Source: Xestospongia bergquistia (lineage: Eukaryota > Porifera > Demospongiae > Haplosclerida > Petrosiidae). Taken from it: DNA of 64,000 bases. The position numbers and the translations under genes are program-made. The notes beneath the pieces were generated by a model. It saw nothing but the letters and a program-made list of their open reading frames with translations, was not told the DNA's origin and did not search any database. The DNA lies in contig OZ014411.1 in NCBI GenBank assembly GCA_963965975.1, forward strand, positions 16,830,446 to 16,894,445. The letters run 5' to 3'. This document shows positions 9,270 to 64,000 of the stretch, one piece after another (positions within the stretch are counted from its first letter, which is position 1; every line of letters starts with the position of its first letter).

Positions 9270-9273
<4 letters not shown>

Positions 9274-10245: not shown

Positions 10246-10254
10246 GTTATGGCT

Positions 10255-24720: not shown

Positions 24721-27700
24721 TTTAATATATTTAGGAGGGATCTACTCCAGTCTTGATAGCAGCAAATATATGACACAAAGAGGTTGCTTTGATATTATCA
24801 CAGAAAGGAGCCAATCTAAATTTTATCTTTATAATGTATTGTCAACAATGTATTAATTTGTTTAAGTGTTATTTTGTTGTATTAGCACAATAAACTAATA
24901 ATAAATAATAAAGTTTTACTTAAACGTAACATTAAACTAGTGCCTGAAGCTGGTTCTCTATCTAGTAATCTTGTTCTACTCAATAAGACTCATCACTCAT
25001 AACAAAACATCTAATTTCACTTAGTGAAATTGTACCTATAACCTGACTATAAGTAAAAGTATAAGTTAAACCACACCTCTAATTGTCTCCTACAAAGCTC
25101 TTTACATTCTATCAAAAATACTATTGAATTGTTGTTATAACAGTACAAAGATAGAAAAACATTTTGATAAGTGTTGTTAGCTTGGTCATAACTTATAACA
25201 CCAATAAGAAGAGTGAATAAGCTGTTATTGAATGACATCATCATTACAATGACCACAACTCTCTTCAATAGGTCACATATACACTATAACTATATCCTTA
25301 TTATACACAAGTGAATTCTCTCAGTTTTGAGTGTAATAAATATATCTCAGCAAATATGACATAGCAGTTTTAATTATAAAATTTATGAATAAATAAAATT
25401 AAGACTTAACAATTAATAATGCTGTAGTATGTAAAACTGGTCTGCTATTTACAATCATAATCTAACAGGTAACATGTTTCATTTAAAAGTACGGATTTTA
25501 AATAGTTCATTTCTGTTATTATGTCTAATGTCTGGTGCTGGACAAGAGGACTACATGGCAAGCATATTTTTACATGTAGTAAATTTTAGTTATGATGATT
25601 TAGTGTAACTTGATTTTTAAAACACTAAATTCTAAAGTTTATTGTAGGATTATATATATAATTTTATATATATATAGTACATACTATAAATAGCTGTTAT
25701 TGTATATAATACTAATCAAAACTATTTTCTTTATTATTTCAACAATCACCAATTTACAAGCAAGACACACAGTATGCTATGTATTTTGATTTCAAAGTGG
25801 TTGGCAGGAACAAGTGAAAACACAAGTTGCCAATGATTATTAGCCAATTCAAAGCCACTCCTCTTGTACTAAATTATCATTAATGTCAATTAACAGTTAA
25901 GAACTAGTATAGTCACCAAAAGACATGTTTAAACATGTCTGAGGTATTTAGTTATAAGAATTCAAGGTGGAGAACTAGGGGGGGCAGGGGGGGCTCTCCC
26001 CCTTGCTGTTTGATTTTTGACTGTGTGATATACAAGTATGCATGATGAATTCCATTCCTCACTAACAAACTGGGTGAAAAATAATTTGATTAATCAAACA
26101 ATCAACCAGCTATATATGAATCAATGACATTCACGATTTGGTATGCTAAAGTTAATTGCTCAAAGAAGCTAAGTGTGCAAGGTTGTTAAGAGAGTATGAC
26201 ATTATTTAATAATTGTTCAAAGTGATCTTATGGGATGAACCCATTTACAAAATACATTATGCTATCACATGTGGTTATTAGGAGGCAGCTGGCTAAGTTA
26301 AAGAATGACTGAGAGATATAATGGCAAAAAGGCAAAGACAACAAAGTTTGCTTTCTGTCTGGTCTGGCAAGAGGGTAAGATCTGAGGTTAGATTAAAGAA
26401 ATATCACATGCAATTTGCAATGAACATGTGAACTTCATACATATACTTTCTTCCAGATATGGTTCAATGTGTTATAAGCTATAAACATATAGCCACTTAC
26501 TAGCTCATCACTTTTGTGTTGTCCATATGTTACTTATTTTAAAATACTAACATATAGCAAGGTTGTTTACCTCATTATATGGTCAGTCATAAAAGCACTG
26601 CTATCATATCATACTCACATGTACCACTTGTCAATTTAGCAGTAAAAATCATCTATATATCTTGTCATTTCAATAATACTTTTACTTACTGTAATGTTAT
26701 CTGTGTCATATTCTGTGGTTATAGCTGGATCCAATGATAATTTGTACCATTATACATAAATAGCTAAACAAAGGAATGACAAAGAGATAAATTGTTGTCT
26801 CCTTTAATAAAACTATAAACTTGCTGAGCTGTCTTGATGCATAAACTAAAGAATTACCAGATCATGTAATAAACACTATTCAGTTAGTAAACAGGTTATT
26901 AGTAACTATACAACAAATAACATTAGTTGTACTCTCAATTATGCACATGAACTAACAGAATTGGTTTCACATGTAAAAACAAGAAGGGCACCTTTGACTA
27001 ATAGCTCAATAAGATCTTACTTAACATGAGAGAATAGCATGCACACTTACAAATCAAGGATATGAGTAAGTGTGATCCTTGACCATTTCTTTGATTCACT
27101 ATATTCATAAAACGATTACAGATACACCAGACAATAACAAACTCTATAAAGAAAAAATATAAAACATAAACATTAAAAGCGTAGCTTACCCAGTTAGTGA
27201 TAACCAGTCACTCCTACAATAACATACAATAACGTCATCTAATTGCTTACCTAGTTACAGTCGCAGTTTTTATGTAGTGATAACCATAAGTGGGCTAGTC
27301 AATACAATAATATTGACTACCCCACTTATGAATTTTAATAAGAAATTATGCATTGTGTAGGTGCACTTTTGCATTAATTGATACTCTAACACAAATGTAA
27401 TCTTTTATAACATTGGCTTTTGCATACTAGTTTCTGTAGTACAATATTTATATATAAACACAGCTTCAATTAATATAATCTACAATCATTTTATCAATCT
27501 TATAATTAATAAGATTCTCAAGACGTTTAACTAACAGAGATTTTAGAGTGAGTATGGAAGTGTATTGTCTAAAAATGTTGTACTTTTACTAATGACTATG
27601 AGCCACAACACTAATTGTATAAATATATGCAGCATATGGTGCAATCAAGATAACTTTTAGTCAGTTTAGCATACACTAGCTTAATTTTTTTTAAATACAA

Positions 27701-28050: not shown

Positions 28051-28059
28051 AGGACTCAT

Positions 28060-28270: not shown

Positions 28271-28352
28271 ACAATATATAAGTACAATATTTAAGTCCTT
28301 GGCAAGCTTACTCCACTGAAAGAATGAACAAACGTTCCAGTTGACTTATATC

Positions 28353-29131
28353 ATGCCTGATAAAATATCCAAAGAACATGAAGATATAAATGAGATTACA
28401 AGATTCATAGAGGTACACTTTCTTATGGTTGTGCCTGTCAGTATTCAAATGTTCCTTAGACCAAATTTAAGGACCAATATCAAGTCCATCTTTGAGTTTC
28501 ACAATCCCAGTTGAATAACAGTGATTTTGATATTGTACTGTACACTGAGTAATAAATTTTACTTATTTCTTGATTATTATATCTATATTGATTAATTAAG
28601 ACATTTCCTATGAGATGTTACTACTGTCAACCCAAGAAATCTAAGAATTATTGTGAAATAATAACACAAATCTTTCAGAAAGACTTCCTTTCATGCATGA
28701 TTTCATATTTTAAAGACTGATCATGTTAGATATATGAAGTTTAAATTTTTATCATTATATGGACAAAATAGTCCAAATTAGAGAAGCAATGCTGACTTCC
28801 TTGGGTACCTTAAAAATATTCCCAGCCTTTTTTTGTGCAATCTGCTGAAAAGTAAGTGAGAATGTTAGTACGATTTGATATAAATCTTCCTGGTTCAGGT
28901 GTACAGGTGCACAGTGGAATGCCTATTTCTTTGAAAAGTTGCACTCTAAAGTGAGTTTCTAATCTGGTGGTGTTGGTTCCTTTATTGGAAAATTCAGGTA
29001 AAAAATTGTTTGTAAAGTCAAATATGGTACTCTAAAATCTACAATTTGAAGACTGACATTGGAATTGCAAAATGCTATTACTTTCACTCTTGAGCTTGCA
29101 AACTTGCTTCTGCAAACAAATATCCAGATGA
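28353..29131 (+). pseudogene. OAS-like gene, copy A, inactivated
   Basis: Homologue of the intact gene at 54388-55811, and the exon layout is still visible. Damage seen: a TGA where copy B has the first glycine of its G-G-S motif, and loss of about 9 bp just after it. A deletion of about 27 bp in the third exon removes the V-D-I-F segment with the third catalytic aspartate. There is an in-frame TAG shortly after, and the exon-5 donor changed from GATGA|GTAAG to GATGACTAAG. Exons 6-7 were not found. The S-D-F-D-I-V block survives. Several independent lesions mean it cannot make the enzyme. Confidence 0.88.
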
Positions 29132-30210
29132 CTAAGTTAATACGTAAAGGTATTAAAGGTATATTATGTGTTTAGATTGGTAAATAACCAAATAATCATT
29201 ATAGTACTACATGCTACATTGCATGATTGTACATCACTGGAGAGCTTCAAACAGAATTATAAAACTGGAAAATAACCTAACTCTTTAACATATGTGTGTG
29301 TGTGTTATGTATTTTATCACAGGACATTACTGAAAACCAGTGTTTATTACTGATGTAATTATCCTGTTTAAACATTTCACTAAAAAATGTTTCATTTAGT
29401 TAACTAAAACTTGAACATAAAAGCATGTTTAACTAAAACTAAATGAAAAGAAAAATTATAAAATTAAAACAAAAACTAAAATGCTCTGAAGTTCAAGGTT
29501 ACATATTCAACCGTTGAAAGCATTTAACTATACTACTGTGTCAATACGCTAATGGCTACAGTTGGCATTACATAGTAATGTTACTAACAGTATATACCTC
29601 ATAGTTGTAAGCATATCAAATAAGTCATATTGTTGTTGTTTTTTACAGTGACTATAAAAACGACAAACAATGTGAACCACTAATAATGACTACACATTCT
29701 ATTTGTCTTTTTCAATTAATTTTTTGTACTTAGAGTAAATTACGCATTATCGGACAGGTCGCTTCCGGACGCTCACATCAACCAAACACAGCACAGCACC
29801 AAGCACTATTAAGTATCTAAAAAATTCACTGATTTAGAACCGACAAATATCAGAAGAATTGAACAGTAGCCACAGTCATTTTTGTAAAATTTTCTGGCAA
29901 AGGGGTAAACGTACCAACATTGATGCAAATACGTTCGAAGGTCTGATTTTCACCAGAAAGAAATGTATATTTACTAACTTCACATACATTCCACATAATA
30001 AATTACAAAACTACCAATTATTTTATAATTCTAATATCCTTCTAAACATTAACAGCCAAAATTCATTGAGAGGTGTGGCTATTTAAGTTCGTCGGGAAGA
30101 AAAATTTATTAATTATAAACAGTACGAGCACAACCAGTCATCTTTCTTAGACCTGCACAATTAAAATGCCACCAGCCAATAAGACAGTTTGCATCAATAC
30201 AATAAATTAT
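29132..30210. other. End of unit A and start of unique sequence
   Basis: Homology to B is lost at about 29195 and returns at 29590-29725, matching 61.2-61.34 kb, then ends. A 75-codon ORF at 29859-30086 starts without support and has no domain. No gene is recognised. Confidence 0.5.
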
Positions 30211-34355: not shown

Positions 34356-34609
34356 AGCCGTTTACAAACAGTTTAGTATGCGCATGTACTATTTCTTCCT
34401 TGAAATCATACAAATCTAGTATCAATTGATTAGTAGCACAGTCAATCTCTTGAAGAACATCTAATGACCCTTATTGACCTCTAGGTGTTCTGTAGTGATA
34501 CCAAGTTTACTGGAGTACTGAAGAGACATTGCTAAACAATAAAATTGATGACAGAAAACATTATATTATTGTGAATATAAAGGATGTCTTATAATTAAAT
34601 TTATTTATA

Positions 34610-34849: not shown

Positions 34850-36590
34850 TATAGTTCAGTTACGCCTTCAAACATTTGAAACAATGAATTTTGAAGTTAT
34901 TAAATCAATTACGTTTGCCAATGGTAAACTGTTATAGTAAAAACTTAAGAGACAAACACTATATCTAATAATAACTTAATCAGGAAAAGCATTAAAATAC
35001 AGAACCCTCAACACAGTAGTAGCTGAAATACACTGAGTGATGATTGTCATACTGCCATGTGTACTACAAGATAACTTACTAAAAAACATAATACATAGAT
35101 ATGACAACTGACAAGACAAAGAAACATTAATAAGAAATCAAAACACAGTATGACAACTGCATGCATGCATAAAGTAGGTGATAATAAGACTGTAGGCAAT
35201 AAAATGCAGTTAATTAGATTTTAAATACAAATTGACTTTTTGTAAGACAGAGAACACATGATTCATACATAATAGTCAGATCACTTATAATTTACAGTAC
35301 CAATAATATATCCATACACTGTATGACTAAAGGAGCATATTAACAACATACAATTTAGAATTCTACTGTGAATTGCTCGTGCATTTTTAAAAGCATAATC
35401 TACCTTTAATATGAAAAACAAAACAGGTTATATAAGTTTCCAATTAATTGTAATATTTTTTGAGATTGAAAATGCTGAGTTGAGTATATAACTTACAGAA
35501 AATAAAAGATACAAAATTGTTATAGTAAAAACCGATATCAAAATGAAATTCAGCATATTTACTAACCTAAGAACCAGTCAACTGCCTTTTATGGACACAA
35601 TAAACACTGCTCTTGCACTATAAAAGAAGTCATGCCGTTATTTCTATTAAAGCGAATGGAGAGGAAAAAATTTGGCTTTCGACGTCGCTACTTTTTACAA
35701 AAATTAAAACGTAAAACTTTATGAACAAGTAAATAGAAAACATTTTTTAATTACCAAAAAAAAAGTCGTGACTGTTATTTTTATCAAAATTATATTTATA
35801 TTAGACTCAGTTCTTTGTAATTTAAATCCTCTTCCCGTAAATTAAGTAGCTTGACAGTTATAGCAGAAATTTTGATAAGTAAGTTCAGTAAGTAAAATAT
35901 CAACATATACTCAATGGTTGAAGTCATGAATATTGACAATTATATTATATGATAGTATAGAAGAACTTTGTCAAAATAATCTATGTTATAGATAAGCTAT
36001 GATAACATAATAGTATTATCAATCAATCACTATTGTAGACATGAGTGTCTTTCTAAAATGCTATAGAAATCATCCAAAGGATTGTCTTTGAACCACCTAT
36101 CTAGACAAGATTAATAAGGTATTTTGTTTTAAGCTACTTTTTGTAATTGACATGTGACCACACTCATATATTACAAAACACAACCCAAACTATATTATTG
36201 TGTATTCATTTGAATTGTAATCTTAATTATTAAAAGACTACTTAACAATCCCAATTAACAACCCAGTTGATGAGTTCCAATTTCTTATTCCTAATTCAAA
36301 ATTTTGCATGTGCGTCATTTCTAGGCTTTTCTTGTTGCTTAATAAAATGTGGAGACTGACTACCACAAGCTATCTCTTAGAATCAAGCATCAGTGAGATG
36401 TTTGCAGTTGGGTTGGCTCCCTGACTTTGGTTATAATATTATGTTGTAGTTCTATTATTTAGGAAAGCCAAAGACAGACATTTAAGCTCCATATAACCCT
36501 GTTTAATTGAAATTGAAAATAGGAATTGGAATGTCCATCTGCGGCTTCTGTAATATATTTTTAATTCTGTTCATATTTCTATAATGAAGT
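34850..36590. other. Duplicated intergenic DNA, unit B
   Basis: Matches 4306-5940 of unit A with indels. It includes the right end of the MITE-like segment (terminal ggcttctgtaa at ~36545). No gene seen. Confidence 0.5.
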
Positions 36591-39450: not shown

Positions 39451-40489
39451 CATGCATTACAATACATTAATAATTATTCAAACGAATTGTATGTTTCTTT
39501 CATCACATTTTCTGTTTAGAGTTGGAACTAATGACATTTTGCATCGTTACATATAAAGAGCTAAATAAGGAGATAGTAAAGAGATAATATGGGGATAAGC
39601 TCAACTAATGCTTATCTTCAATAAAATTATAAACTTGCAGAGCTGTCTTTGTTAACTATTACTTAACCAGGTTATATAAACTTTATTTGGTAGTAAAATA
39701 GATCATTTAGCTTTCACGCTATACAACAAGTACATTAGTAGCAATCTCAGTTATGGCCACACCATTAACAAAGTTTACTTCATTTGTAAAAGTAACAAAG
39801 GTGACGTAAATCTTAGAGTAAGAAGATAGCATCAATATTCATTGCTTTTCAAAAACGTACATTATATATAAATGAGTGCAATTCTTAAACTATCATTACA
39901 TGATGTATTAGAGAAATAGTCAGAGGATTAAACTCACTAGTGTACTTCTTAATGGTTCATTAGTATATTATATCATATTTTGTTTGTGTGTGTTGTGTAT
40001 TCAGAAAACACTCACAAATATACTAAAAATAAAAAAGAGTTAAAATATAATTATTAAAATACAGCAGCTAATGTCTAACCTAAAACAATGTAGTTCATAC
40101 CATTCCATATCACGAACGGGACAGAATAACACATGACAGATATAGTCACTTCTACTAAAAAGTTGAGACTACCACTCTAAATTATACTAACTTACTGTGT
40201 CACGCGTTTTTTGTTAGAGTTTAGGGAGTGGGAACTGGCTTTGAACTTGCTGGCTATTAGTCCAGCGTGCTAGCCCCTCCTTCTTTTAGAGAAGGCGTGG
40301 GAGGAGGTTATTGACAGTGCCGTAACGTTTTCCTGTTATTCGATTTAGTCTAAGGATAACAAATACACAAAGAACTCTTGGGATTATGAATAACTGTTAT
40401 ATAACCACTGTGTAAACATTGCAATACAGTTTCACATTCCAATGGGGGAGTAAGTCTAGTTCGCCTCTAGCCTCTCCTCCGCCTAATTA
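39451..40489. other. Duplicated upstream region of chitin synthase B
   Basis: Close match to 8040-9100, including the GC-richer hairpin block near 40250-40310. No gene seen. Confidence 0.45.
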
Positions 40490-40582
40490 TAAAAAGGAGA
40501 TGGGCTAGCTCGCAGACTACCGGACAATTAAGCAGTGTTTTCAACTAAAGCTAAACGTATGTGAGCTTCATCATATTGTAAG
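40490..40582 (+). promoter_or_regulatory. Putative non-coding first exon of chitin synthase B
   Basis: The conserved donor TGTAAG|GTAAGTATG ends at 40582, as at 9192 in unit A. The likely splice partner is the acceptor immediately before the ATG at 41935. The start of the exon is not defined. Confidence 0.45.
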
Positions 40583-41934
40583 GTAAGTATGTTGCAAGTA
40601 TCTTAATAATAATAGTGATATATGTATGTATGTACGTATTTAAATTATATATAATTTCAATTCAATTAAAATTAAAAGTTGACATAAGACATAATCTTTA
40701 AACTGTCCTTATAAAGAACAATACTGTTTAAATAAATTAGTTGTTTTAGCTGTTATCATTGTCACTCAGGCTAGCTACATGCATATTTGTAACATATTGA
40801 AAAATATATGTGTTATGGCCTTCTTTGAAACACTCTTAAAGACAACCAGCCTGCTTTAATGCCGAATGACCCAATTTTAAACGAATCCATTCTGCTTTAC
40901 AACTAACTCAACACTAGTGAAAGAGTTAACTACTATTTTTATTTATGTCATATTGATCTCAAAGGAAATAATTTTTATGTTATGGTTAATAAAGTGTAGG
41001 AACAAGAACAACTTAGCAATTTGTTTATGACCTTCATCTTGTCTATAGAATTGCGTGTCCAGGTGATGGCGATTTTTGTAATCTTTTACTTGTATGTATA
41101 TAATGCTTTTAAAATATTTTTGCATACGGTAGACTTTATTAATTTTGAGCTAGATTACCACCTTCTGTTTTTAAGATGTTATTCGCTTTCTTTAAGCTCC
41201 TTCACGGGTATTTGTTTTGAAAAATTGGCCCGTTTTAAAAGCCACAAGGTTTCGAAGCCAATTGCCCATTCGGAATGGGCTAAAGTTTGCATGCAATCGG
41301 GTAGTTATGTATATATAGATAATAGACAAAAAAAAATCGTATGTTGATGACGTAATATTGCTACATAAAAGTAATAGAACTCAAAAGGTTTGATCTGCCA
41401 AACCAGATTTAAGGCAATATCGTCATATAAAATAAATGCAAAAACAATGTTTCTGCAAGTAGGTTACGCTAATCTCGAAAGTTCGAAACAAAAATGATTA
41501 AACAGAGATACCATACTATCATGTAAGTAAAAAAACCACTGTGGCTAGATTCCCGTTAGAATAAAACCATACTTGTTGTGTCTGCCATATATAAAATACT
41601 GTTTTTAAATTGCAAAGTTGCATACTTTAACTCAGCAATGCAGCTTATCAAAAAGGATGTTGCATAATATCTAGACTTGACTTAATATCAATTTTGCACT
41701 GCATACATATTCGAAATAAAACTGTGCATTGTTTACTTTGTCACCAAATTGAACAAAAATATACTAAAAAACAATTTATGTTTACAATAGTATTTATAAA
41801 TGTTATTTCAGAGTATGCCAACAATTCTTTTAAGATTATGCTCATAAATGTACTCATAGTATATCCATACATTAAAATGGATAGCAATTGTCAGTGTTAT
41901 TTTTTGCATTCTCCCACAACTAATAGAATTATAG
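40583..41934. other. Putative 5' intron of chitin synthase B
   Basis: Aligns with 9193-11186 of unit A but lacks the 575-bp element; the empty site is at ~40978. ORFs at 41021-41347 and 41694-41948 are not conserved in frame and are disregarded. Confidence 0.5.
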
Positions 41935-44900
41935 ATGGCAACCAGTGAACTTGAAGAAATTCACTATGAGAGGTTTGAAAGCAACACAGTAGCAACATCT
42001 GACAATGAAATCATCTCTATTTCCGACATTGAAGCCAGCGATAATGAAATTTCACCATTGAATCAACATAAACTTGTCTTTCAATCAAAGAAAGGCACTA
42101 TCAGAGCCCTTGTTTGGTTTGTAAAATTCTTATTATTTGGTGGAGTACTCACTTGTCTAGTTTTCAGCAAGCTCACCATTATCAAGATCATTTCAGAATT
42201 GCATCGATTAAGCAACTTCAGTATCCACCATTTTGGAAATAATTTTGATACAAACAAATCAATTGCACGTGCTGCTAACCTTTACTGGATGCTTCTCTTT
42301 ATTGTAATGATACCCAATTTGATCGCATGGATAAGAGCAATATTGAGTGGGTTACTAAAAAAATCTTCAAGTCATCCTTGGCCCAATTGGTCTGCACTTT
42401 TAGGAGTAAGTAAAGATATGTACTTTCATTAGCACACACTAATACATTACTATTATGTTCATGCAGCTAATATGAGAATTTTTCTCTACAGGGTGCATTT
42501 AATGCTGGCATGGAGGCAGTTGCAGAATCATGTCTTTTATTTTATGTCTTCATTACTCTTCCTCCTGAAGTGTCTGTTGTTTTGATGTGTGGAGTGGTCA
42601 GCATACATTCCATTATTCAAGCTATTATTTATATTTACTATTATGTCAAGTCTAATGGGCAAGAAAACAACTTACCTTTAATTGGAAGCAATAAAGTGGT
42701 TCTAAAATTTGGAAAGTGTCACCATACCTTTGTAAATTTTATTTCAATATGTGCTATTATATGTCAAATACTTGGACTACTCAGTGCAATAGCATTTCTG
42801 ATAAAAGAGTATGAAAATGCAGAGCTGGGCAGAATTTTAGGACCAGTGCTAGCTATACCATGTCTACTAATTCTCTCATTTACTTGGTCTAGCCTAATAC
42901 AAAAGCTAACCTTCTTTCCAAATTCAAAATCTATGCAAAGTGCAACGATAAGAGAAAATGAAAACAGGGATGACACAACTATAACAGCCAGATGGAAAAC
43001 AAGTAAGTGATGTCATAAGAAAGTAATAACTCTTTATAACTAGTGAGTAGGTGCGGCTATGACGAGTAATTACTCGTAAATTTGCGAGCTTATACATACT
43101 TCCGCTGAGACCGTTCTTAATCAACAAAGGCAAGGCGATAGTCACGCAATCATTTGATGGCCAATAGAGAAAGTTGTACCATGCTAAAAGGCAATGAGTT
43201 TTCATGTTAAACAAGCTCACAAAAAGGCGTTCTAAATAATGTGATAAAGACATTATTTTGGAATAATTAAATGACGTGATTACATGAAAATAACTGGAGG
43301 TTGGAATTGGACAACAAGAATGCTCTACAGAAACTACAAATCAAACCTTATTAACTGTTTTTGTCTGTTCTTAAATTACTTATTCATAAAAATGGCTTCT
43401 CTTAAGAGTAACTCTACACAGCACACACTTTGTTTTTGAAGCACTAAAGGTGAAGCCTACAAAAGTTTAGCATATTAGCTCTGTAAGTTTGGTATCCAGT
43501 CTGTTAATGTTAGCAAGTTATTGTGAACTGAAAAGCAGTAACATGAAAAATCCAACATTTTAACAATTGTGCATGTCACGCTTATAGAAAACTTTGCCTT
43601 AATCTATAACAAAGTTATAATGAATGATTGATATGGAAAAAAAATATTCCAAACAATTGAAAAATTTTTAAAAGTTTTGAGTATTGTTTTTTTCAATATA
43701 TTTTAATGGATCCAGACAATCCAGGTCATCCCTACATAGGTACTGCTATTATGTGCCAATTCTACGTTAAAGTTGTCTAATGCAAATTTATCTCATTTTC
43801 TAATTGATATTTCAGGTTTTATAACAACATCTGTTCGTCTCCTCGTTTATCCAATAGCTAGTTATATTTTTTTTCGATTTACTTACGATTTGCAGACAAA
43901 TGAAGGAGTTGATCCATGGGTCACCAAAGCAGATACATCTCTCTCCATCACACAAGCTTTCAACTGGAACAATTTCTACATTGAAGTTTTCTCTGCTCAT
44001 GTTGTTACTAGTTTCTTGGCATACGTTTTGTCATGGCTTTCTTGTTATATGACTCTACATGTATTTGGACTAGGGTTACCAATACTACTTGCTACACCTG
44101 TTACATTAGCTGTCTATTTTTTGTCTAATTACTCGGTAGATTCATTTGGAAAGAACATTGTCTTGTTTCCATTTGAAGCAACAGATGTAGCTTCAGTTGA
44201 TTGGAAAGACACTATTGAATCAAAATGGTATATTTTTGCTTTTGGTTTCTCTTTCTTACTTTGGGCTGGACAACAATTTGCATCAGCTTTCAACCTTTTC
44301 AGAGCCAAGAATGCCATTCTTGCTACTGATGCAAATATGTTTGTGAGGCCTTACTATAACAGTATTTTCTTGGAGCAGTACTTGATTGTCAATAGAAATG
44401 TGTCAAACTATGCACAGGTAAGTATAGATGGTAGTCGTGAACCTTGTCATGTTTTCATTTGTTCAACAATGTTTCGAGAGAACCCTACAGAGATGAAGCA
44501 AATGTTGTATTCTATTAATCGTGTTGCTAAGTATTACAAGAGCAAAATGAATATAATACATGACAATTTTGAGTCTCATATCTTTTTTGATGATGGTTGT
44601 CGTGAAGATGAGCTCTCAGCATTTGCAATACAACTTATGAGTTTAGTACCTAGAGCTCTGCATGTGGAATTGAAAGATGCAGAAAAACAGAAGACACCTT
44701 ATGGTTATCGTTTTACATGGACACTTCAAGGATGTATGCCATTTGTTGTTCATCTCAAGGACAATTTGAAAGTTCGGAATAAAAAGAGATGGAGTCAAGT
44801 CATGTACATGAACTATGTGCTTGATCATCGCTCTGAAAAAGATGGATTTGATCTTAACAATACTTTTATACTTACTACAGATGCTGACATTGACTTCAAA

Positions 44901-47305
44901 GCTGAGTCAGCTGTTGTTTTATTAGATATGTTAGCTCGTGATCCACAAGTAGGTGCTGTATGTTCACGTACTCATCCACTTGGCAGCGGTCCTATTTACT
45001 GGTATCAAATCTTCGACTATGCTGTAGGTCATTGGCTACAGAAAAGCACTGAACACATCTTAGGCTCTGTTTTATGCTGTCCAGGTTGTTTTAGTATATT
45101 TCGTTGTTCAGCACTTCAAGATTGTTTACCTACATATTCTAGTGAAGTAAAAAATGCAATTGAGTTCTTAATGAAGGATATGGGTGAAGATAGGTGGTTG
45201 TGTACACTTCTTGTTGAAAAGGGTTGGCGATTAGAGTACTGTGCTATTTCTAATGATTACACCTACTGTCCTGTTGAATTTGATGAATTCTACAAGCAAC
45301 GTCGTCGTTGGATTCCATCAACTATTGCTAATCTGTGGCTATTAATATCTAAAGCAACTAAAATTACAACTAGAAATGAGACAATTAGCTGGCTATTTAT
45401 CATTTACCAAATTTTGGTGATAATCTCAACTGTAATATCTCCAGCTACTGTTATTCTAATTATTGCTGCTGGTTTATCAACTGCCTTTGAGTTGAACGGT
45501 GTCTATTTAACCATAACTCTTTTTGTAATAGCTGTCATCTATGGAGTCATCTGTGTTTTTACAAGTCAAAAAACACAACTAGATATTGCAAAACTTCTGA
45601 CCTTCTTGTTTTCAGTTGTTATGGCCATTGTGATTGCTGAACTTATTAAAGATACTGTTAATGATATTGTTGTGCTAGGACAAACTAATAATATAGGCAA
45701 TGAGTCACTGTCCATTTATGAACTACCTGTTACTGAGAATATTGTTTATATTGGTCTGTTTGGATTAGTTTTTATTATAGCTGCTGTTCTGCATATCTTT
45801 GAGAGTTTTGCTGTTTTAAATTCCTTGTGGTATCTTTTGGGTTTACCTTCTGGCTATCTTTTACTTCTCATATATTCCACTGCTAATCTTAACAGCAGGA
45901 GCTGGGGGACACGAGAAGAATCTGTTAAGACACAAAGTGTACTCTCTGTTCTGTGGAAAATTACTAAACGTTTTATTCTAAAACTTTTAAACAGAAGCAA
46001 AGGAGATACAGAAAACACTCAAGAACAGGTACTAACAGAAATAATCACTGATCAAAAACCTTTAGAACAATCTGTTTATCAATGTCATGGTGAGCCATTT
46101 GTAAATTTAATCATATATTCCTTAAAACAATGACCTTTTTAGATACTTGTAGAGAATATCCATGGCTAAGGAAGTGGCTAAAGGACAACAATAGTGAGGT
46201 GAATTAGCTGATAATTACTAATCTGTTTTGAAGTTTACTTATTAATATTTTTATGTAAATACAGCAATTTTATGATTTGTTTGCAAGAGATGGTTACACA
46301 GAAGAATGGTTTCTATCAAGCATGACTACAAAAGTGAGTGAAATGTTATACCATTATAGGTGGAAAATTTATTATTAAAAATATATTTAGGACTTAACTA
46401 ATATTGGAGTGGAACCACAAGGATATGTTCGCCACTTGGATAAGGCTATCAAAAAACTTCCTAAAACATCAATTAAAATTGGAATACCTGTAATAATTAT
46501 ATAAATACAATATAATGTGTACACTTTATTTTCCATTCATTATGTAGAAGTCTATTGAAAGTTGGATCACTGATTTAAAAATGGATGCTGAAGAAGATGG
46601 ATATTGTGAAAAATTTCATAAAGCAGGTTATCATGGAACAGAAGATGTTGAAAATCTTGTACACATAACTGAACAAGAACTTACTAAAGATATAGGTGTC
46701 TTTAAAAAAGGTATATTGCAATTAAATGATAACACAAATGATATTGAACATTCTACAGCTCATATTAAGAGATTTCTACAAGGACTTCAGAGATTAAAAT
46801 TGAGAAATGAAGGTAAAAAAATAATCATTATAGACTTTTATAACATTATTCTTTTGTAGATGAAGAGAGAATTGCTGAGGCAGAAATGGCGTTAACCAAT
46901 GATCAAGTGGATAGTTGTCTTGAGGATGATGAGGAGGGATTTTGGTTACATACTATTGAAACTGTTCTTAAACCTACTCCTGATAGTTTGACACGTGTCA
47001 ATGAATTACGTCATGATCTCAATAGCCTTCGCTATCATGCACTGATAGCAATGCTTTTGATTAATCTTATCTGGCTTATTGTTTTCAGTCTCTTCACATT
47101 CGATGAATTGAAAGGTTTTGGTTTTGGTAATCAGGCTCTTGGCTTACTATTCTTAGTTGTATATGGTGTATTACTGTTAGTACAGTTTATTGGCATGCTA
47201 CTTCATAGACTTGTGACTTTGGCTCACTATATTGCTCGTCTCAGTCAGGCTTTACCAACTGAATATACAAGGACACAAACAATGCTACGTAGTAGTTACT
47301 TTTGA
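41935..47305 (+). CDS. Chitin synthase with two SAM domains, copy B (nine coding exons, 1380 aa)
   Basis: Paralogue of copy A with identical exon sizes. Exons: 41935-42405, 42492-43002, 43816-46089, 46143-46198, 46265-46333, 46391-46489, 46548-46710, 46759-46812, 46860-47305. All junctions are GT/AG and in phase. The catalytic motifs T-D-A-D-I-D, G-E-D-R-W, Q-R-R-R-W and the S-W-G-T-R-E motif are unchanged, as are both SAM domains and the C-terminal membrane pair. Over exon 3 I count about 39 amino-acid differences in ~757 (about 95% identity). Eight of them fall within 14 residues (~449-462), in a loop between predicted membrane spans. The end of exon 3 is also variable. The exon-8 donor here is GTAAAA. 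No lesion seen; likely functional. Confidence 0.93.
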
Positions 47306-48492
47306 GAATGGTTTGTTCGTAAAATTAAAGACTATGAGTGAAATCCAAATATTTGTATAATGCTATTTTATTGTAATTTGTGTTATTAATGGTACCACTA
47401 GTAATGAAATTTTTAATTAGACGTGCTCTTATATCTATTATACTTTGTGTTAGATAATTGGATATTCAACTTTTGACATAAACTTTATTCATAAAGTGGT
47501 GTTCATAAATATCTTTTGATGGTTCTTTGTTCTTATAAAATAGATAAAATTAGTGGCATTTTACTTGAGTTATTGCATAGTTACCATGACAACCAGCTTT
47601 GACTCCAGAAGTTTATCCAACAATGTTATTGAATCAGGCTGTTCTGATGTAACTATTGGTATTTCACTGTACTGGACTCTTGATCAATGAGCACTTTCAA
47701 TTGATGATCATAAACGTTTCTCCTAATAATGAAAATAAATAGTAATGAAAATATATAATGAATTTGTCTTCATCTATTGAAGTCCAATGACAATGTTTAT
47801 TTACCAGCTCTCACATTACAAACCTCTTAATTTGTACCAATGATTTGATATAGAGTTGTGGCATTCAAGTTTATTAAATATACTTGTTGTAAGGTTGTAG
47901 GACAAGAATAATATTGTCTTTGATCTTCTAGAATGTAAATTCCATATTGTTCCATGCATGACTCAAGTAAGATATAATGATAATTATATCACAATAATCA
48001 TTATTTGATTTTAATAATAAGAAATTTGAAATTCTAATGATAGTCACTTTGAAATGAACCCACTTTGCTATGTAATACACATTTAAATGATTCATTTCAA
48101 TATTGTTGAATAGTATAGATAGAAATATGAATTTCATTTTAAAAATAAAATAACACTTCACAACAAACAAATTGCAACCTAAGATGAATATCTAACAAAC
48201 AAAAAAAGCCTTTTATAGTATTAAGGAACATACTGAAAACATACAGTAACTTGTGTTTATATTCTATTCATGCTCAAATTTTATCGATTGTTGCATGTTT
48301 TTTTTTATGGAAATCATTTAAACAAATTGTTATACTATCAAAAAATATTTGAAAGCTCATACATACATTTTACATAATATGTACACATATTATGAAAAAT
48401 AAATGTTGGCATACAATCAAAATATTGCAATTTTGGACAAAATATATAATATATAAAAATTATGTCAGCATGTATTCTACCTATGAACATAA
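47306..48492. other. 3' flank of chitin synthase B, then unit-specific spacer
   Basis: Homologous to 16525-16920 up to about 47730, then unrelated to unit A. No gene seen. Minus-strand ORF 47928-48170 is AT-biased and unconvincing. Confidence 0.55.
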
Positions 48493-51288: not shown

Positions 51289-52750
51289 CAAAATAATCAG
51301 TTTAATCCATTCTCTCTAACAACAAAATTGCTCTTAACTAGAAGTGGTAAAACATTGCTAGACATCAATTCTATGGAAATATGCTGTAGTTACTAGCATC
51401 AGTTTAAGACAAAACGTCAGTCATCAAAGGTCCTGGGTTTAGATCAATCATACTTGATAAAATAAGGAGGAATAGAAGAATTACCTTTGACACTAGAGAG
51501 AAAGATGAGTCACTTCCATTACATCTTGATCCTTTGGGTTAAAATAACTCCAACTATCATGCGTAATCAAAACATGGACTCTTTTTATAGTAATACTATA
51601 ATTATAACTCAATACTAACTTTTTATTGACAAATGTCAAACATGACTATGACTTGATAGAGTTACATTCACCAATCAAACTATCTTTGATTTACAACCAT
51701 TTTTTTAAAAATTGATTAAAATTTCAAAATTATTATTGTTCCTTAAATCAACATTTATTCATACTATAAATTTTCACATTATATATACAGTACATAGTAT
51801 ATATATCTGTTATTGTATATAGTATAGTACTAATCACTATTTTTTAATTATTATAACAATCATCAATTTGTATTTTGTAGTATGTATATGTATTTTGATT
51901 TCAAAGTGGTTGGCAAAAACAAGTGTAAACATAAGCTCCTAATAATGTATTATTAGCCAATTCAAAGCCACTCTCCTTGTATTAAATTATCAATTATGTC
52001 AATTAAAAGTTAAGAACCTGTAGTTACCAAAACAAATATTTAAATTTGTCTAAAAAGTTGTTTAGTTATAAGAGTAACAAAATATCACATGCAATTTGTA
52101 TTAAACAAGTAAACTTCATACATACACGTCGTTCCAGATATGGTTCAATGGGTAATAAGCTATAAACAAATAACCACTTACTATACTAGTTCATCACTTT
52201 TGTGTTGTCCATATGTTAGTTAATTTAAAATAATAAGATTTAGCAAGTCTGTTTTCCTCGTTATATGCTATGTCGTAAAAACACTGCTACAATATCATAC
52301 TCACATGTACCACTTGTCAACTTAGCAGTACAATTTATTTATATATATTGTCATTTAAATAATACTTTAACTTACTGCAACACTTTCTGTGTCATATTCT
52401 GCGGTTATAGCTGGATCCATTGATAATTTGTACCACTACAAATAAACAGCTAAACAAAGGAATGTTGAAGATAATTTTTTTGGCCTTTCAAGAAATCATA
52501 AACTGGCTGAGCTGTCTTCATAAACTAAACCAATATAAGGTCATATAATAAATACTAATCTGGTAGCAAACAAGTTATTTAATAACCATACAATAAGTGA
52601 GATCAGTTTTACTCTCAATTATGCACACAAAACTAACAGAATTGGTTTCACACATAAAAACAAGAAGGGCATCTTTGACAAAATTGTTACTTAGCATGAG
52701 AGAATACGATGCACACTTACAAATCAAGATATGTGTAAGTATGTCCCTGT
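51289..52750. other. Spacer between the inverted-repeat arms
   Basis: From about 51780 it matches unit A from about 25670 onward; earlier sequence is unit-specific. The minus-strand ORF 52778-52575 starts at the edge of the right arm but its B/A conservation is poor, so it is not called. Confidence 0.5.
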
Positions 52751-53152
52751 CCATTTCTTTGAGATAAAATATATACAAAATATTGCAGACAGACTAGACA
52801 ATAACGAACTCTGTAAAGAAAAGTTAAAATATAAACACTACAAAACGTCATCTAATGGCTAACCTACTAAGAGTCGCAATCTCTATGTAGTGACAATAAC
52901 ATTGACTAGCCCAATCATGAATTTTAATAAGAAATCAATGGGTGTGCATAATCATAAATAAAATTATAATAATAGTTTTGCATACTAGTTCTGTAGTACA
53001 ATATGTGCAACAAAAATAGCGACAATTGACATAGTCTATAATAATTTGTCAATCTTATAATTAATGGGATACTTAAGACATTCAACTGACTGAGATTTTA
53101 GGTTGAGTGTAGAAGTGCATTTAACTATTGTAATTTTACTAATGACTATTAG
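52751..53152 (+). repeat. Right arm of the 402-bp inverted repeat
   Basis: Reverse complement of 50382-50783 with few mismatches. It corresponds to the ancestral copy seen in unit A near 27.1-27.6 kb. Confidence 0.9.
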
Positions 53153-54387
53153 CTATAACACTAGAGTAACATCAGAGAAATTGTCTATTAGTAACTGTAA
53201 CTTATTTATAAACATATGCAGCTAGGTGCAACCGTGATGAGTTTTAATCAGTTTTTATAAACTAGTTTAACACATTTGGTTATAAAAACGAAAGTTATTA
53301 ACCTCTGTGACTTCAATGCAGTATATATAGCATTTAAAACAGATTACTGTTCGACAAATTAGTGGGGATGTAATGTAACAACTGGACACCAACTCAAACA
53401 TTTTGAGGTCAGTCTGTATTCAGTTTTTTTTCCACTTGACATATATAGGAGACTTCAGTTCTTGAATTAATTATAATGTTATTACTATACCCTCACATGG
53501 TTTGACCATTTCCATTCATTTCATAATAAATGAGAGCCTAAAATCTTATGTATATATATATATTAAAACACAGTTAATTGCCATCAACCCCAAGTTTGGT
53601 AGTACTGAATACAACTGACTTGGTAACTACTAATTTTCACACATATCAGTTTGTTAAAAACTAGGTCCTTTGACTGCTGCCTCAACTTCATTCATTAAGA
53701 ATCTAATCTCTTAATTATGCTCATTAACTGGAAAATGTTTCACTACAAAGAGGAGGCAGACATACTATAGGAAACATGCTGAGCACTAACTAGTACCAGG
53801 CAGTAATTCTATTCTTTTAATATCACTACAGCTCCATAAACCTATATGATAAGTATTCATTTTCAGTCAATATAATGAATTCTATATATCCCTGTTATCA
53901 AAATGTTTTAATAACTAGTCCTTCAATCTCCTTTTGCAACTGTCATCCATTCAACGTTATCTTAAACTATAATATAGAGATCTACATACATTTTAACTTA
54001 AAAACAGAACCAAATTGTGACCTTTTTGAAGACAGATTTGAAGTAACAGCTGACATATTGATTATGTGATGAATTTATAAGAGTTGTTTAACAATAATTG
54101 AGATTGCATATTTTGTGTCTTTCAAGCTACTATGGGAAAATTACAAGCATTATCACTTTACGTGGGAAATGCATAAGCAATTCTCGACCTATATATTACA
54201 GTGGTAAAATTATGTAATGTATAAGCATGTGAAAAGAACAGGCATTTCCCACAATTGCATGCTTGAGGATTGACATTAAGCATTTTTCTTTCTCAAGTAG
54301 TAATTATAAATATATATGTATGTATAAGTACAGTACTTTGCAAGCTTACTTTCCTGAAGAAATAACTGCTTCCAGTTGGCTCATGTC
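53153..54387. other. Upstream region of OAS-like gene B
   Basis: Partly homologous to 27.6-28.35 kb. No gene called. A 64-codon ORF at 53875-54069 has no homologue in A and no known domain. Confidence 0.45.
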
Positions 54388-55811
54388 ATGGCTGCTAAAA
54401 TATCCAAAGAACTTGAAGATATAAAAGAGATTACAACTTTCATTAAGGTACATTTTCTTAAATATGTACCTGTCAGTAGCCAATCTTTCCTTAGACCAAA
54501 TTTAGGGACCTGTATGAAGTCTATCTTGGAGGGTCACGATCCCAAGGAACACATTTGGATAACAGTGATTTTGATATCGTACTGTACACTAAAAGTAATA
54601 AATATGACTTTATTCATAATGATTATATGCATATATATTTGATTATTTAAGATATTTCACCTGAGATGTTACTTTCAAGTCCAGAAATTAAGAATTACCG
54701 TGAAATAATAGAAATCTTTCAGAAACACTTCCATTCAAGATTTCATGTACTAATGACTGATCATCTTAGATATATGAAGTTTACATTTATATCATTACAA
54801 GGACAAAACATACATGTTGATATATTTTTTAGTCCAAATTGGAGAAGCAATGCTGACTTCCTTGGGTATCTTAAAACTATTCCTCCCAGTTTGGTTGAGC
54901 AATCTGCTGAAAGGTAAGTAACAATGTTAGTATAATTTCCATATTTATACATAGTCTTTCAGATTTAGGTACACGGGTGCAAAGTGGAATGCCTATTTCT
55001 TTGAAAAGCAGCACCCCAAAGTGAGTTTCTATGCCTGGCAGTGTCAGTTCTTTTATTATAACTTCAGGTGAAAGAGTATATTCGTAAGGCTAAAATATGG
55101 CGTTCTAAAGTCTGGATTTTGAAAAGTGATGTGGGAATTCCAAAATGCTATTTACTCTCACTCTTGGTTATCAGAGCTTGTGAACTTGCATCTCCAAACA
55201 AACATCCCGATGAGTAAGTTAATATGTGAAAGTAATAATGGTATATGAACTGTATAGATTTGTAAATAACCAATTAATTCACAGAAATCAAAATGTAATT
55301 AGGTATAGGCAAAGATGACTTTAGCTTTCACATTTTAGAGCCTTCTCTTATGAAGACATCACTGTATTATAGCAAACATTTTCCTTTCATGCTTTCTACA
55401 CCCCTCCCCCTAATTATACCCTTGTTACTAGTGGCATTCCCATTACACGAACAATAGAGAGAAAATAAGTTGCAATATTAGTTTTCATACTGTTAGGTCT
55501 TATCATTACTATTTCTATGATTTCAGGGTAAAGCAACAGATTATTCATTTGGTTGAAAATTATCCTAAGATGAAGTGAGATTTTGATTATGCCATAATGT
55601 TACATCTACTATCTGCAACTATAGTATATATTGGGAAGTGTTCTACAATATTAGAGACTTTCCTAATGTACCCAAAACTTATCCACGACTTCTGTGTCCT
55701 TGGAACCCTTATGACAACATTGCTAACGGTGCATTTCTAGATGGTACTGAAGATGGAAAAAGCGATTGGCCAGCATTTGTCTATAAAATACATCATATTG
55801 AACTTAACTAG
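54388..55811 (+). CDS. 2'-5'-oligoadenylate-synthetase-like nucleotidyltransferase (seven exons, 286 aa)
   Basis: Exons 54388-54447, 54495-54594, 54652-54913, 54963-55020, 55068-55213, 55527-55574 and 55625-55811 join in phase with GT/AG introns, several near 50 bp. Exon 2 encodes Y-L-G-G-S-R-S-Q-G-T and S-D-F-D-I-V, the GS..DxD active site of this fold. Exon 3 gives V-D-I-F with the third acidic residue. Exons 4-6 carry the helical OAS region (I-P-K-C-Y-L-L-S-L-L-V-I-R-A-C-E-L). Exon 7 has I-Y-W-E-V-F-Y and the P-R-L-L-C-P-W-N-P-Y-D-N-I-A block, equivalent to P-x-I-L-D-P-A-D-P in OAS. Such enzymes make 2'-5' oligonucleotides or cyclic dinucleotides, often after sensing dsRNA; sponges are known to encode OAS relatives. 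It is shorter than vertebrate OAS1 (about 350 aa). Intron 1 also reads open in another frame, so the N-terminus is the least certain part. The start is the first Met in phase. Confidence 0.85.
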
Positions 55812-56289
55812 TACATTATGTAAAATGTGTATGCACAAAATGTTTGTAGTGATAATTCTAAGTAATAAGCACCAACCTGTATGGTTTTATATTTTAAGCT
55901 TAACATTTATTATATTGATGTTTGTAAATAACCTATATATATTATATAGTAGTAGAAACTGCTTTATTTGTGACCTTTTAATGTCAAATTAAACTTATTT
56001 TCTGCCAAAGGCAAAATATTTTTCATGTATAAACAATTCTCATATTTTGGTACTGACATAGTTATGGCACAACAAACAAAACCATACCAAGCATTTCTCT
56101 CAAGCTTTTCAGTACCTTTCAGTGTAAATGAGTTCAGCAGGCTCCATTGTTCTGCCATATGCAAAAAGCCATGAAGTTTATTGGTATAAAGCAGTATATC
56201 TGGCAGGCTTTTTTGTAGTCCCATTTCTGTCGTTACCAATAATTCCCTATTCAGTAGCAGTTGGTTAGATTTGTGCTTTATTCCAATTA
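55812..56289. other. 3' flank of OAS-like gene B
   Basis: AT-rich; short ORFs on both strands (55741-55992 overlaps the last exon in another frame; 56239-55964 minus) have no domain. An inverted-repeat piece at ~56097-56140 pairs with ~56712-56756. Confidence 0.45.
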
Positions 56290-58489: not shown

Positions 58490-60079
58490 TCACTTGATAC
58501 TCCTCCTTCCAAATGAATAGTAACATCCATACTGATCAGCTATATCAACTCCACCCATGCTCTGGTTGTACTTGTCAACAACCAGAGGTTTCTCCCTGGT
58601 TTCTCCACGGCGACCTCGAACTGTCGTCATTGACCCCTGATAGACAGTGGAGATCATTACTGTTGGCTTCCCTTTGTCCCTCCATGCCAACACCAATTTC
58701 TTTCCATCTCTCCACGCCTTAGTTTCTCCCTTGTTCAATTTGAAACTTTTGCCTCTTACCACACTTGGAAGCTGTTGCCGAGTCCTAACTAATGTCCCAG
58801 TGTAACCAGTGTTTCACCTCTCTAGCTCATCAACCAAAGGGACACTAGAATAGAGCCGGTCAGCATAAATATGATGACCCTTGTGAAGATAATTTTCAAC
58901 AAGAACCAAAACTATCTGGGTGAGGCTTGGGAGTTCAGGGTTACAATTTGACAGATATATGTCCTTTGTCTCACTTTCAGTGTACAGGATTATATTGAGA
59001 ATAAACCCTGTAGCACTATCAGCAAGAACAAAGGACTTGAGGCCCCATTAAATCGGTTTCAGTGGACAATATTGGCGGAAACCAACCCTACCCTTGAATC
59101 CAACCATTGTTTCGTCCACTGAAATCTCACGTCCAGGGTAGAAAACACTCTGGAATGTTGTAAGCAGTTGATCGAGAAGAGGCTTAACTTTGTCAATTCG
59201 TCGTAGTCTTGTTGATGTTGTGTCTTCTTGTAGATGTAACATCCAGAAGATCTCTTCAAACCTGTTACGTGGAAGAACATCATGGAAGAACGGTATATAA
59301 CTCTAGCATGACGTCTTCCAATAGCTAGCTCGTTCCAGGCAGTGCATTACTCCCATGTTTATAATAACCGCCAGGACCACCTTCATCTCTTCTGTGGTGA
59401 CTGGTCTCCACTTCACCCATCTGGATTTTGGAGTTAATTTTCCACCTCTCTCCTTCTCAGCAATAACATCACCAGCATACTCATTTGTACCATCAACAAG
59501 CATCTGAATTATTACGTCATTAAAGAAAAGAGAAAAGAAATCCAGTGGGGAAGAGTCTGCCGATAGTGAAATTTTTGGTCCTAGCTGTTCCATGAATGGG
59601 ATAGCTGTTGGTGGAATGTCAGCTTGGAGGTCATCCACTGGTATCCACGGTTCAGCTCCATCACCTCCTTTCCCGTTACTACTACAACCACCTCGTCCCC
59701 TAACACCACTGTAACAACCATCTCGTCCTCTACCACAACCTCCACGTCCCCTGCCACGCCTATCACGACCTCCACATACACTTCCACTACCACTTACTAT
59801 TACAGGTAAGTTTTATAATGATAATACAATATATTGCAAAGTAATTTTTATCTTACCATTCAATTGTTCTTTTTCAGTCTCATCAACCACAACAATATTA
59901 TCAGGTACTACATCAATTTCATCATCTATCTATATATATAATTTTTTTGCTTTATTGTAATAATTATAATTAAATATTATAATACCTAAGTCTTCATCAA
60001 AAATGTCACTAAAATCGCTCTCATCGTCATCACTAAACAGCCTTACCATAACATCCTCTGTGGTTAACTTATCAGCCAT
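58490..60079 (-). pseudogene. piggyBac transposase (PGBD-like), with at least five in-frame stops
   Basis: The frame starts at ATG 60079 with an acidic segment (S-D-D-D-E-S-D-F-S-D). Two short introns seem to follow (near 59986-59935 and 59862-59811), then a Gly/Arg-rich stretch, then the DDE domain. D-E-T-M-V-G-F-K-G-R lies near 59120, Y-A-D-R-L-Y-S-S near 58875 and G-G-V-D-I-A-D-Q-Y near 58530; these contain the three catalytic aspartates. Stops interrupt it at 59305-59303 (TAG), 59050-59048 (TAA), 58816-58814 (TGA), 58492-58490 and 58489-58487 (TGA TGA). The last two fall where the family has W-W. Apart from these the frame is maintained, so decay is recent and by substitution. Confidence 0.85.
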
Positions 60080-61561: not shown

Positions 61562-64000
61562 TTAGAGCACTTGAACTCGCCAGTTTGATTTGTCACATAT
61601 ATATAGATATCCATCAGGATCAATAGCTAATCCTGAAGGATTTTTGAAAAGTCCCTTTTCATATCGCTCTCCTTTTCCACCAAATTTCCTCATAAACTTT
61701 CCATCAAGGGTAAACTCAGCAATGGTGTGATCACGACAGTCACTCACATAAACATATTCTTTACTAATGGCAATCCCTTCTGGACTATAAAGATGATCTA
61801 CACCAAACTCAGTTAGAAAATTGCCTTTGATAGAAAGTTTCTGAATACGCTTGTTAAATTTGTCTACAACATAAATATTCCCACTTTCATCAAAGTCAAT
61901 TGAGTATGGACGACGGAACTCCTTAGGTCTTATGCCAGCAGTGCTACCAATCTGGTGAGAAAATGTCAAATCCTCGTTGAGTACTTGAATGCGGTGATTT
62001 TCTGCATCACAGACATATATTTGACCTGATATTGGATGAACACCAATTCCAACTGGTAATTTGAATTCCAGAGGAGCACTACCAGACATACCAACAGATG
62101 TGATATATTTGATATACTCTCCTCTATCTCCTACAGCAATTGTGAATTCTCGAATACACTGGTTGTTCTGATCAACCAACAAAATCCGATCATTTCTTGT
62201 GACAGCAACACCAGCAGGACAAGATAACATTTCTTCGTTTATTTTGTGTGCAAAGAAACAAACATTTCTTCCTTCATTATCAAATACAGTAACACGATTT
62301 CCATAATATTCTGTCATAATAATATAACCTTTGTTGTTGGTCAATGCAATCCCCCAAGGATGATCAAGATGTGATATAGTTGTAATCCATCTATCTTGTT
62401 GTAGAGGTGAAGGAACCATAGGTATCATTTCAGCAGTGTGATCAAGATCTAACTTTACAAGAAGCTGATGCTCACAAGATAACTCTGGTTTGTACTCTAT
62501 CATGTAGGTATCAGCAGCTCTGCGAAGAGGTACTATTAATTATAAAAAAATAGCTCCAAACAAGAAGCAATAATGACATGCATACCAATTCTGTTAGAAC
62601 TTGAGTCTGCATACTTCATTTTTTCTGTATGTTCATAATATATAAATTGTAATGTGTATACAATTAAGATATTTACCATTTACATATGATCTTTCTTTAT
62701 TCAACACTTCATTGTTTTTTTCAATCAGTGATGGAGCATCAATACTGAATTCAGTCACGATTGATGATCCTACAGCTAAACATAAATTAAAAATGAACAT
62801 CAATTTGTACATGTCAGTCCTTACCAGAGTCATCAGAGAACACAGATGAACTGTCGTCATTTTTGTGAATTTCATCCAATTGTATTGAATGAGAACCTAA
62901 ATTTGTAATCAAGGAATGAAAACAAAGAAGGTCTACTTTAAAACTAAATTGCACTTTTTCTTCACATAATTTCTCAATAAATGCTATGAATGTACTAATG
63001 ATGTTTGGTTGCCCCATTTTGGATGCTTCTATAAGCTCTGGTAAGAAATTATTATGTTTCGGAAGTAATGCTTCTATTAATTTATATGAATTGTCGCGAA
63101 GAGAAACTGTTAAGGCTGTATCTCCACCTTTAGTGGTTTGAGATAAATTAGTATCGAATTCAAGCAGAAGTTTTACCATTTCCAAATGCTTATTTTCACA
63201 AGCTATTATGAGAGCTGTTTTACCATCCTGTCTCTGAATGTTAGGATTAGCATTAGCGTTGAGTAAGTGTCGAGCAATCAAGTATTCATTTTTTTCACTG
63301 GCTATCATGAGAGCTGTAGACCCTCTATAATCTTGAATGTCTGGTGTAGTAATTTTGTCCTCTTTACATTCAGGTGTGGCAATTAGTGCTATTTTCCCTT
63401 CTTCATCTTGGTAGTTAATGTTAATTTCTAATTGAAGTAGGAAACAAGCTGCTTCAGTGTTAGCAACTTTTACAGCTTGCAGAATAGCGAAGTCAAAAGT
63501 AAAGTTATTATTTTCTTCTCCTTCTAGAATTAGTTTGCCATTGATGATAAGTTGAAAGATTCCAATAAGGTGCATAAATTGAAGCTTTTCTTGAGTATGA
63601 GCTATAAGAGAGTCAACTTGAGTATCTTGAACTGCATATTCAATACAAACTGACCCTGAAAATATTTGAATATGATTCCAAAGAGATTGACCTTCAAGAC
63701 GAGGCAATAAATGAGATATCAAAGTTTTGAAATGTTTTATAGCAACATTACTCCATGGTTTGTTGAAGAAAATAGCTACCTCAGGTGATTCAGAGTTCGA
63801 AAATGGAGAAACATAAACACTTCTCAAATATTCACGCAATGCAATTACAGATTGTGTCTCTCGAAAAGTTTCAGCTGATGTTGAATGAGCTTGGAGCTCT
63901 GTCACGAGATTTCCTTTTACAAACTTCTCAGTGATTACTTCAATCACTTCACAGTCAAGAAAATCAGAGTAACGTTCCAGTCTTTGAAAGAGTTGCATAA
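61562..64000 (-). CDS. Ankyrin-repeat / NHL-repeat protein, 3' part of gene (runs off the right edge)
   Basis: Minus-strand exons: ≥63998-62825, 62775-62677, 62624-62586, 62532-61562, all GT/AG and in phase, with a TAA at 61564. The first visible exon has an N-terminal region I do not recognise (L-D-C-E-V-I-E-V-I). About four ankyrin repeats follow (T-A-L-M-I-A-S, T-A-L-I-I-A-C and others). Three small segments form a Ser/acid-rich linker. The last exon encodes six NHL repeats (such as P-V-G-I-G-V, P-S-G-L-A-I-D-P-D-G-Y-L-Y-I-C-D), expected to fold as a six-bladed propeller. NHL propellers bind RNA or protein in TRIM-NHL proteins, but no RING or B-box is visible. A Met occurs at 63998, but the exon probably continues beyond the window. 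It lies outside the tandem duplication. Confidence 0.85.

Follow-up and report, generated by a model that had tools for sequence, protein, structure and literature searches.

The window analysed here, a stretch of 64,000 nucleotides from the sponge Xestospongia bergquistia, contains a locus that raises two linked questions: does it hold a genuine gene of the OAS family, whose enzymes link ATP into short chains used as signals, and what would such an enzyme make? The first-pass annotation had proposed seven in-phase exons at positions 54388-55811. Joining these exons indeed yields 861 nucleotides that encode 286 amino acids plus a stop codon, with all six introns bounded by GT and AG and with phases that agree throughout. 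A nearer acceptor for exon 2, at 54506, was rejected as it breaks the frame, and the acceptor at 54495 gives the 861-nucleotide product. The warning that an open stretch across exons 1-2 is in the wrong frame also held: read unspliced from the ATG, 84 codons stay open across intron 1 and exon 2 until a stop at 54640, and the catalytic motif is not among them.

All seven exons lie on the plus strand and were assigned by splice joining together with alignment, to which Pfam matches contribute for exon 5 and a profile for exon 7. Exon 1 (54388..54447) carries the ATG and ends in phase 0; the 21-amino-acid first exon of C7a, one of the paralogues described below, ends in the same phase and at the same alignment column. 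The GGS motif and the first two catalytic aspartates (D45 and D47) are encoded by exon 2 (54495..54594), and the third (D110, within VDIF) by exon 3 (54652..54913), which also encodes R93, the residue aligned with R129 of pig OAS1. Exon 4 (54963..55020) supplies the bulk of the acceptor-pocket segment FRYTGAKWN, and exon 5 (55068..55213) the OAS1_C helices, including VKEYIRKAKIW. Exon 6 (55527..55574) is preceded by intron 5, which is absent in the C7 paralogues, and exon 7 (55625..55811) contains the P-x-x-L-x-P-x-x-P block and the stop codon. By motif match only, ATTAAA at 55988..55993 (plus strand) is a possible polyadenylation signal, with AATAAA at 56349 as a second candidate.

The exon borders were examined with a spliced protein-to-DNA aligner (our own script) that allows introns and favours GT-AG, and so is not blind to splice signals, and that permits insertions of up to 12 codons. 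With the C7a protein (30% identical) as query, all internal exon borders of the focal gene were recovered at a score of 308.7. The reverse strand of the same DNA scored 69, and the maximum among 66 control alignments was 99.8; these controls were 33 window stretches aligned on both strands, what remained of 40 randomly drawn 1.6-kb stretches after skipping seven near OAS copies. The C7d query likewise gave back every internal border (C7a and C7d share 28-30% identity with the focal protein), and the C7b alignment, which begins within exon 2, recovered all later ones. The C7a-based alignment places the start of exon 1 at 54376, four codons ahead of the focal ATG, and positions focal intron 1 at C7a residue 25 rather than 21. 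The latter is a matter of gap placement, as these introns coincide in a MAFFT alignment. Five of the six focal introns match C7a in position and phase (20/0, 54/1, 141/2, 160/0 and 225/2, given as residue/phase), and the extra focal intron is at 209/2. From sequence comparisons of this kind, we consider it confirmed that this locus is a genuine OAS gene, to all appearances intact.

The paralogues used as queries form a second OAS gene group, located by a protein query of the genome (146 Mb, 21 contigs) to roughly 57.7-65.3 kb of contig C7. Four genes (C7a-d) without stops or frameshifts, and one fragment, were modelled with the spliced aligner and C7a as query. Stops and a frameshift in C7d, and implausible first exons for C7b and C7c, had appeared with the focal protein as query and were gone with C7a. 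The C7b and C7c models have no located start in exon 1, and that of C7d starts at query residue 3. C7d was also given one more intron near its end, which may be an aligner artefact given that the frame stays open through this intron and that longer insertions exceed the 12-codon limit. Spliced alignment with the focal protein produced no gene from a fifth stretch at C7:65.5-69.9k, and the genome query returned one weak match on contig C14 (E 0.43). An exon-by-exon search of the whole genome for PF10421 returned neither a match nor a control match; the protein query did find the OAS copies.

The focal protein is 28-34% identical to the four C7 paralogues. An alignment of all five OASs of this genome has 314 columns, of which 48 are invariant, among them S34, D45, D47, D110, K169 and P250-x-N-P. 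The introns common to C7a-d lie at 21/0, 61/1, 139/2, 158/0 and 223/2 (residue/phase, C7a numbering). The gene structures of Geodia and Amphimedon OAS were reportedly described by Reintamm in 2008; as regards the sponge subgroup, our comparison of intron patterns covered C7a-d of the same genome, with five of six focal introns shared.

Animal cGAS/cGLR proteins and OAS belong to one NTase superfamily, and the next question is on which side the focal protein falls. The annotation had favoured OAS membership and named a profile search as a check. In that search, both OAS1_C (PF10421; 1.9e-9, 37.8 bits against a cut-off of 19.9) and NTP_transf_2 (1.3e-7, 32.4 bits against 21) exceed their Pfam cut-offs, and MTPAP-like_central and Polbeta match below theirs. 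The motifs that had been read from the DNA, namely GGS, D45, D47, D110 in VDIF and the P-x-x-L-x-P-x-x-P block, are all present in the joined protein. A phmmer search of the PDB with the focal protein gives eight matches, led by OAS2 (9h1z, 1.9e-11) and including OAS1 (4ig8, 2.5e-7). A profile of the five own-genome OASs, whose matches cover most of the OAS unit, finds OAS2 at 3.7e-36, OAS1 at 1.5e-21 and the bacterial enzyme CdnC (6p80) at 1.1e-10. There is no cGAS among the 10 PDB matches of this profile or the eight of the focal protein. We therefore regard assignment to the OAS family as very nearly certain.

This assignment bears on the annotation's suggestion that the enzyme could be either a 2'-5' synthetase or a cyclic-dinucleotide synthase. 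Most eukaryotic CD-NTases are reported to split into a cGLR (Mab21) and an OAS (OAS1_C) superfamily (PMC10732462). By this criterion the focal protein is an OAS and not a cGLR, since OAS1_C is present and a Mab-21 match is absent at E<=1, a level reached by four Pfam families. The synthetase half of the suggestion gains from this result, and a cyclic product becomes less likely because the protein lies on the OAS1_C side. A cyclic di- or trinucleotide synthase resembling bacterial CD-NTases or cGLRs would fit the profile match to CdnC, as well as a published tree in which OAS is nested within bacterial clade C (PMC10732462). It would also fit the matches of C7d to PADLOC CBASS cyclase models (best 2e-13) and of C7a to an NCBIfam CBASS cyclase model (6e-14), although the latter reaches 51.8 bits, far under its cut-off of 200. 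However, the focal protein itself matches the PADLOC cyclase models weakly (best 3e-5), and neither STING_LBD nor a control match for it was found in the genome, a weak negative that is no proof of absence. Mab-21_C gave a single genomic match (E 0.87, below cut-off), likewise a weak negative. On balance, we judge a cyclase to be very improbable.

What product might be expected from an OAS in this lineage? Sponge OASs have been demonstrated and cloned, one has been expressed and characterised, and they are classed as a subgroup of their own whose gene structure differs (PMC2852836). The same paper reports that sponge OAS makes 2',5'-linked oligomers and uses GTP, UTP, CTP and NAD+, and that 2-5A and 2',5'-heteronucleotides are present in vivo in two sponges. 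Going by the title of a paper cited there, Geodia OAS does not require dsRNA. PMC6307210 reports OAS from four sponges in which IFN, IFN receptor, STAT1/2 and RNase L are absent, and these four OASs are said to retain 3'-product synthesis. Large amounts of 2',5'-oligonucleotides occur in certain sponges even though interferon and RNase L are reported absent, and their OAS has no established role (PMC2852836, PMC6307210). The annotation's statement that product, activator and receptor are unknown in this lineage stands for the receptor; for product and activator it is too strong in view of the 2',5' oligomers and the Geodia title (PMC2852836).

The catalytic set of the focal protein is intact (G32-G33-S34, D45, D47 and D110), and its three acidic residues occupy the alignment positions of pig D74, D76 and D147. 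Equivalents of pig OAS1 V78, R129, R209, K212 and Y230 are also kept; R129 falls in a gap in the C7 paralogues, and the third catalytic motif reads VDIFF in the focal protein versus VDLLP in the four C7 copies. The acceptor pocket differs. S186, T187, T190, Q193 and L149 of pig OAS1 are replaced by R, Y, A, N and F, so that V78 alone is kept among the listed acceptor-adenine residues (S186, T187, T190 and Q193, with V78 and L149), a list taken from PMC6307210. None of the five OASs of this genome keeps T187 or T190, which are likewise replaced in the four sponge OASs of that report (PMC6307210). S186, Q193 and L149 are kept in C7b, C7c and C7d, and C7a keeps L149. In addition, Q229 has become C and K65 has become Q, and, like the changes in the acceptor pocket, these substitutions might reflect an activity that has been altered or lost. 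In human OAS, dsRNA is contacted by the basic residues R195, K199 and K204. Pig R194, R198 and K203 correspond to A, E and K in the focal protein and to K/K/K/V, Q/L/L/K and E/Q/Q/E in C7a-d.

Because the acceptor-pocket residues S186, T187, T190, Q193 and L149 are replaced, acceptor or product specificity may differ. One reading is that the OAS fold has been given a changed acceptor, such that NMP is placed on another 2'-OH (that of NAD+, a tRNA or another nucleotide), or that mixed 2'/3' links are formed in place of 2-5A. The loss of all four acceptor-adenine contacts and L149, set against retention of S186 and Q193 in three of four C7 paralogues and of L149 in all four, speaks for this reading, as do the broad substrate use of sponge OASs (PMC2852836) and the 3'-product synthesis reported for four of them (PMC6307210). 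Against this, the residue mapping depends on a single alignment, in which identity to the solved OASs is 23-25%, and R129 is kept in the focal protein and gapped in the C7 paralogues. We consider a changed acceptor of this type unlikely, though the most serious of the rivals discussed here.

We favour, as the probable reading, a single-domain OAS of the sponge type that acts as a 2'-nucleotidyltransferase, probably independent of dsRNA and with a changed acceptor pocket, and with slightly less confidence we expect it to be an active 2',5'-synthetase. Such a protein would adopt a DNA-polymerase-beta-type nucleotidyltransferase fold joined to the OAS helical domain. The donor NTP would be bound via the GGS loop, with Mg2+ held by D45, D47 and D110, and NMP would be passed to the 2'-OH (perhaps also the 3'-OH) of the acceptor nucleotide. 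The predicted products are short linear oligonucleotides, mainly 2',5'-linked. As with Geodia OAS, activity would not depend on dsRNA, and the replacement of all four acceptor-adenine contacts may give the enzyme a different choice of acceptor from that of its C7 paralogues.

Has this gene nevertheless begun to decay? Four OAS copies were found on the contig that carries the window (C1), and of these only the focal one is intact. The other three (at about 16806.9, 16827.3 and 16858.8 kb) were considered as living genes and rejected, as each has at least three frameshifts as well as stops as aligned, lacks alignable exons 6-7 (identity 44-56%) and shares a 21-nucleotide deletion over VDIF that removes the third catalytic aspartate. 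The last of them lies within the window (28273..29196, plus strand) and was identified by alignment as a copy of exons 1-5. The decayed copies are 91.5-96.9% identical to one another, and an already dead copy was probably duplicated, since these sequences are alike, all lack exons 6-7 and share the deletion.

The death of three of four copies on this contig is what could be expected if the focal gene were recently inactivated or dying, the last of a decaying array. However, its 861 nucleotides are free of stops and frameshifts, its splice sites are unbroken, and its catalytic triad is intact. Divergence from the decayed copies is 15.5-16.6% in exons 1-5 and 23.9-24.5% in introns 1-4 (Fisher p 0.009-0.03 for three copies that are not independent), which implies that the exons were or are constrained. 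Differences at codon positions 1/2/3 number 32/25/40, 34/25/32 and 36/25/36 for the three comparisons. There is no clear third-position excess, and this weakness is the other point in favour of a dying gene. Although changes on the decayed branch also enter into them, these counts argue against the focal branch being under strong purifying selection, and for the living copy purifying selection is not proven. Overall, we find a dying gene improbable, and retain the reading of a functional sponge-type OAS.

The window also carries a tandem segmental duplication, pairing 1-16917 with 32087-47730 (85-95% identity in colinear pieces) and 25667-29196 with 51780-55278. Within the tandem segment, self-comparison of the window shows that 25667..27182 (plus strand) is repeated at 51780-52848. 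Each half of the first pair has a chitin-synthase-like open frame, at 12989-15322 (PF03142, 3e-26) and 43773-46133, with Pfam run on the first of these frames. Elsewhere, an NHL-repeat frame (PF01436, 4e-35; 61562-62503) adjoins an ankyrin-repeat frame (Ank_2, 9e-19; 62814-63998), and a DDE_Tnp_1_7 transposase fragment (2.5e-14) lies at 59306-59638, all on the minus strand. Diverged low-GC internal repeats, 73-75% identical and with strong AT skew, occupy 18348-20300. On contig C9 near 3186.4k (L051, L054), a silicatein-like exon reads CGCSYAF (CGCSYAFAAVGALEG), with Ser for the active-site Cys. Other papain-fold sites keep Cys among the best 30 of 76 matches of a pattern search, and Ser for Cys in a papain-fold exon is a silicatein signature. 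The sponge origin proposed in the annotation is consistent with this exon, which fits a demosponge.

Candidate receptors for such oligonucleotides might be sought among KEN endonucleases. A C-terminal KEN (PF06479) exon occurs at no fewer than eight places (C5:7736-7835k, C4:8994k, C7:2084k and C12:2017k), five of them on C5, where two have internal stops, and HRD-type kinase motifs lie near the KEN exons of C12, C5 and C7. This number exceeds what one IRE1 would need; RNase L is reported absent in four sponges (PMC6307210). No ankyrin pattern was found at the eight KEN loci (about 1.5 kb on each side, both strands, frames of more than 35 codons). Coverage of the stretches further upstream (L083 and L084) consisted of open-frame lists. 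On the minus strand of C7:2082.6-2089.7k, a 290-codon open frame contains two z-alpha stretches (PF02295, 2e-9); it lies about 1.5 kb upstream of kinase motifs on the same strand, with KEN exons further on and a possible splice donor present. The frame, motifs and exons may form one Z-alpha/kinase/KEN gene for a nucleic-acid-sensing RNase.

A more far-reaching proposal is that the focal OAS and the C7 paralogues feed a nucleotide-signal pathway with kinase-KEN endonucleases as receptors, in which the focal enzyme makes a second, chemically distinct oligonucleotide via its rebuilt acceptor pocket. We regard this as a long shot. If true, it would constitute a 2',5'-oligonucleotide/KEN axis without an ankyrin receptor, because RNase L is reported absent from four sponges (PMC6307210).

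The focal gene alone extends a known family without changing the picture. Two separate OAS loci in one genome, one a divergent lone survivor and the other a group of four, nonetheless provide defined enzymes for comparison of product and function. No paper on this gene was found in the literature searched, whose coverage excludes most subscription papers, and the terms sponge, Porifera and Amphimedon are absent from the main text of a cGLR survey (PMC9980059). The gene is a new, unusually divergent relative of known sponge OASs and not a new kind of system. It resembles the sponge subgroup of Geodia cydonium and Amphimedon queenslandica in being a sponge OAS gene with T187 and T190 replaced (PMC6307210); it stands apart in its 28-34% identity to the four C7 OASs of its own genome and in the additional lack of S186, Q193 and L149. 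With vertebrate OAS1 (PDB 1px5, 4rwn and 4ig8) the protein shares GGS and the equivalents of D74, D76, D147, R129, R209, K212 and Y230, but it is 23-25% identical, has a loop past the third aspartate that is eight residues shorter, and carries A and E for R194 and R198 and C for Q229. Animal cGAS/cGLR proteins differ in both the Mab-21 and PDB comparisons above. The bacterial clade C enzyme CdnC (6p80), which the five-sequence profile matches more weakly than OAS, is not among the eight PDB matches of the focal protein alone, whose gene, moreover, bears introns.
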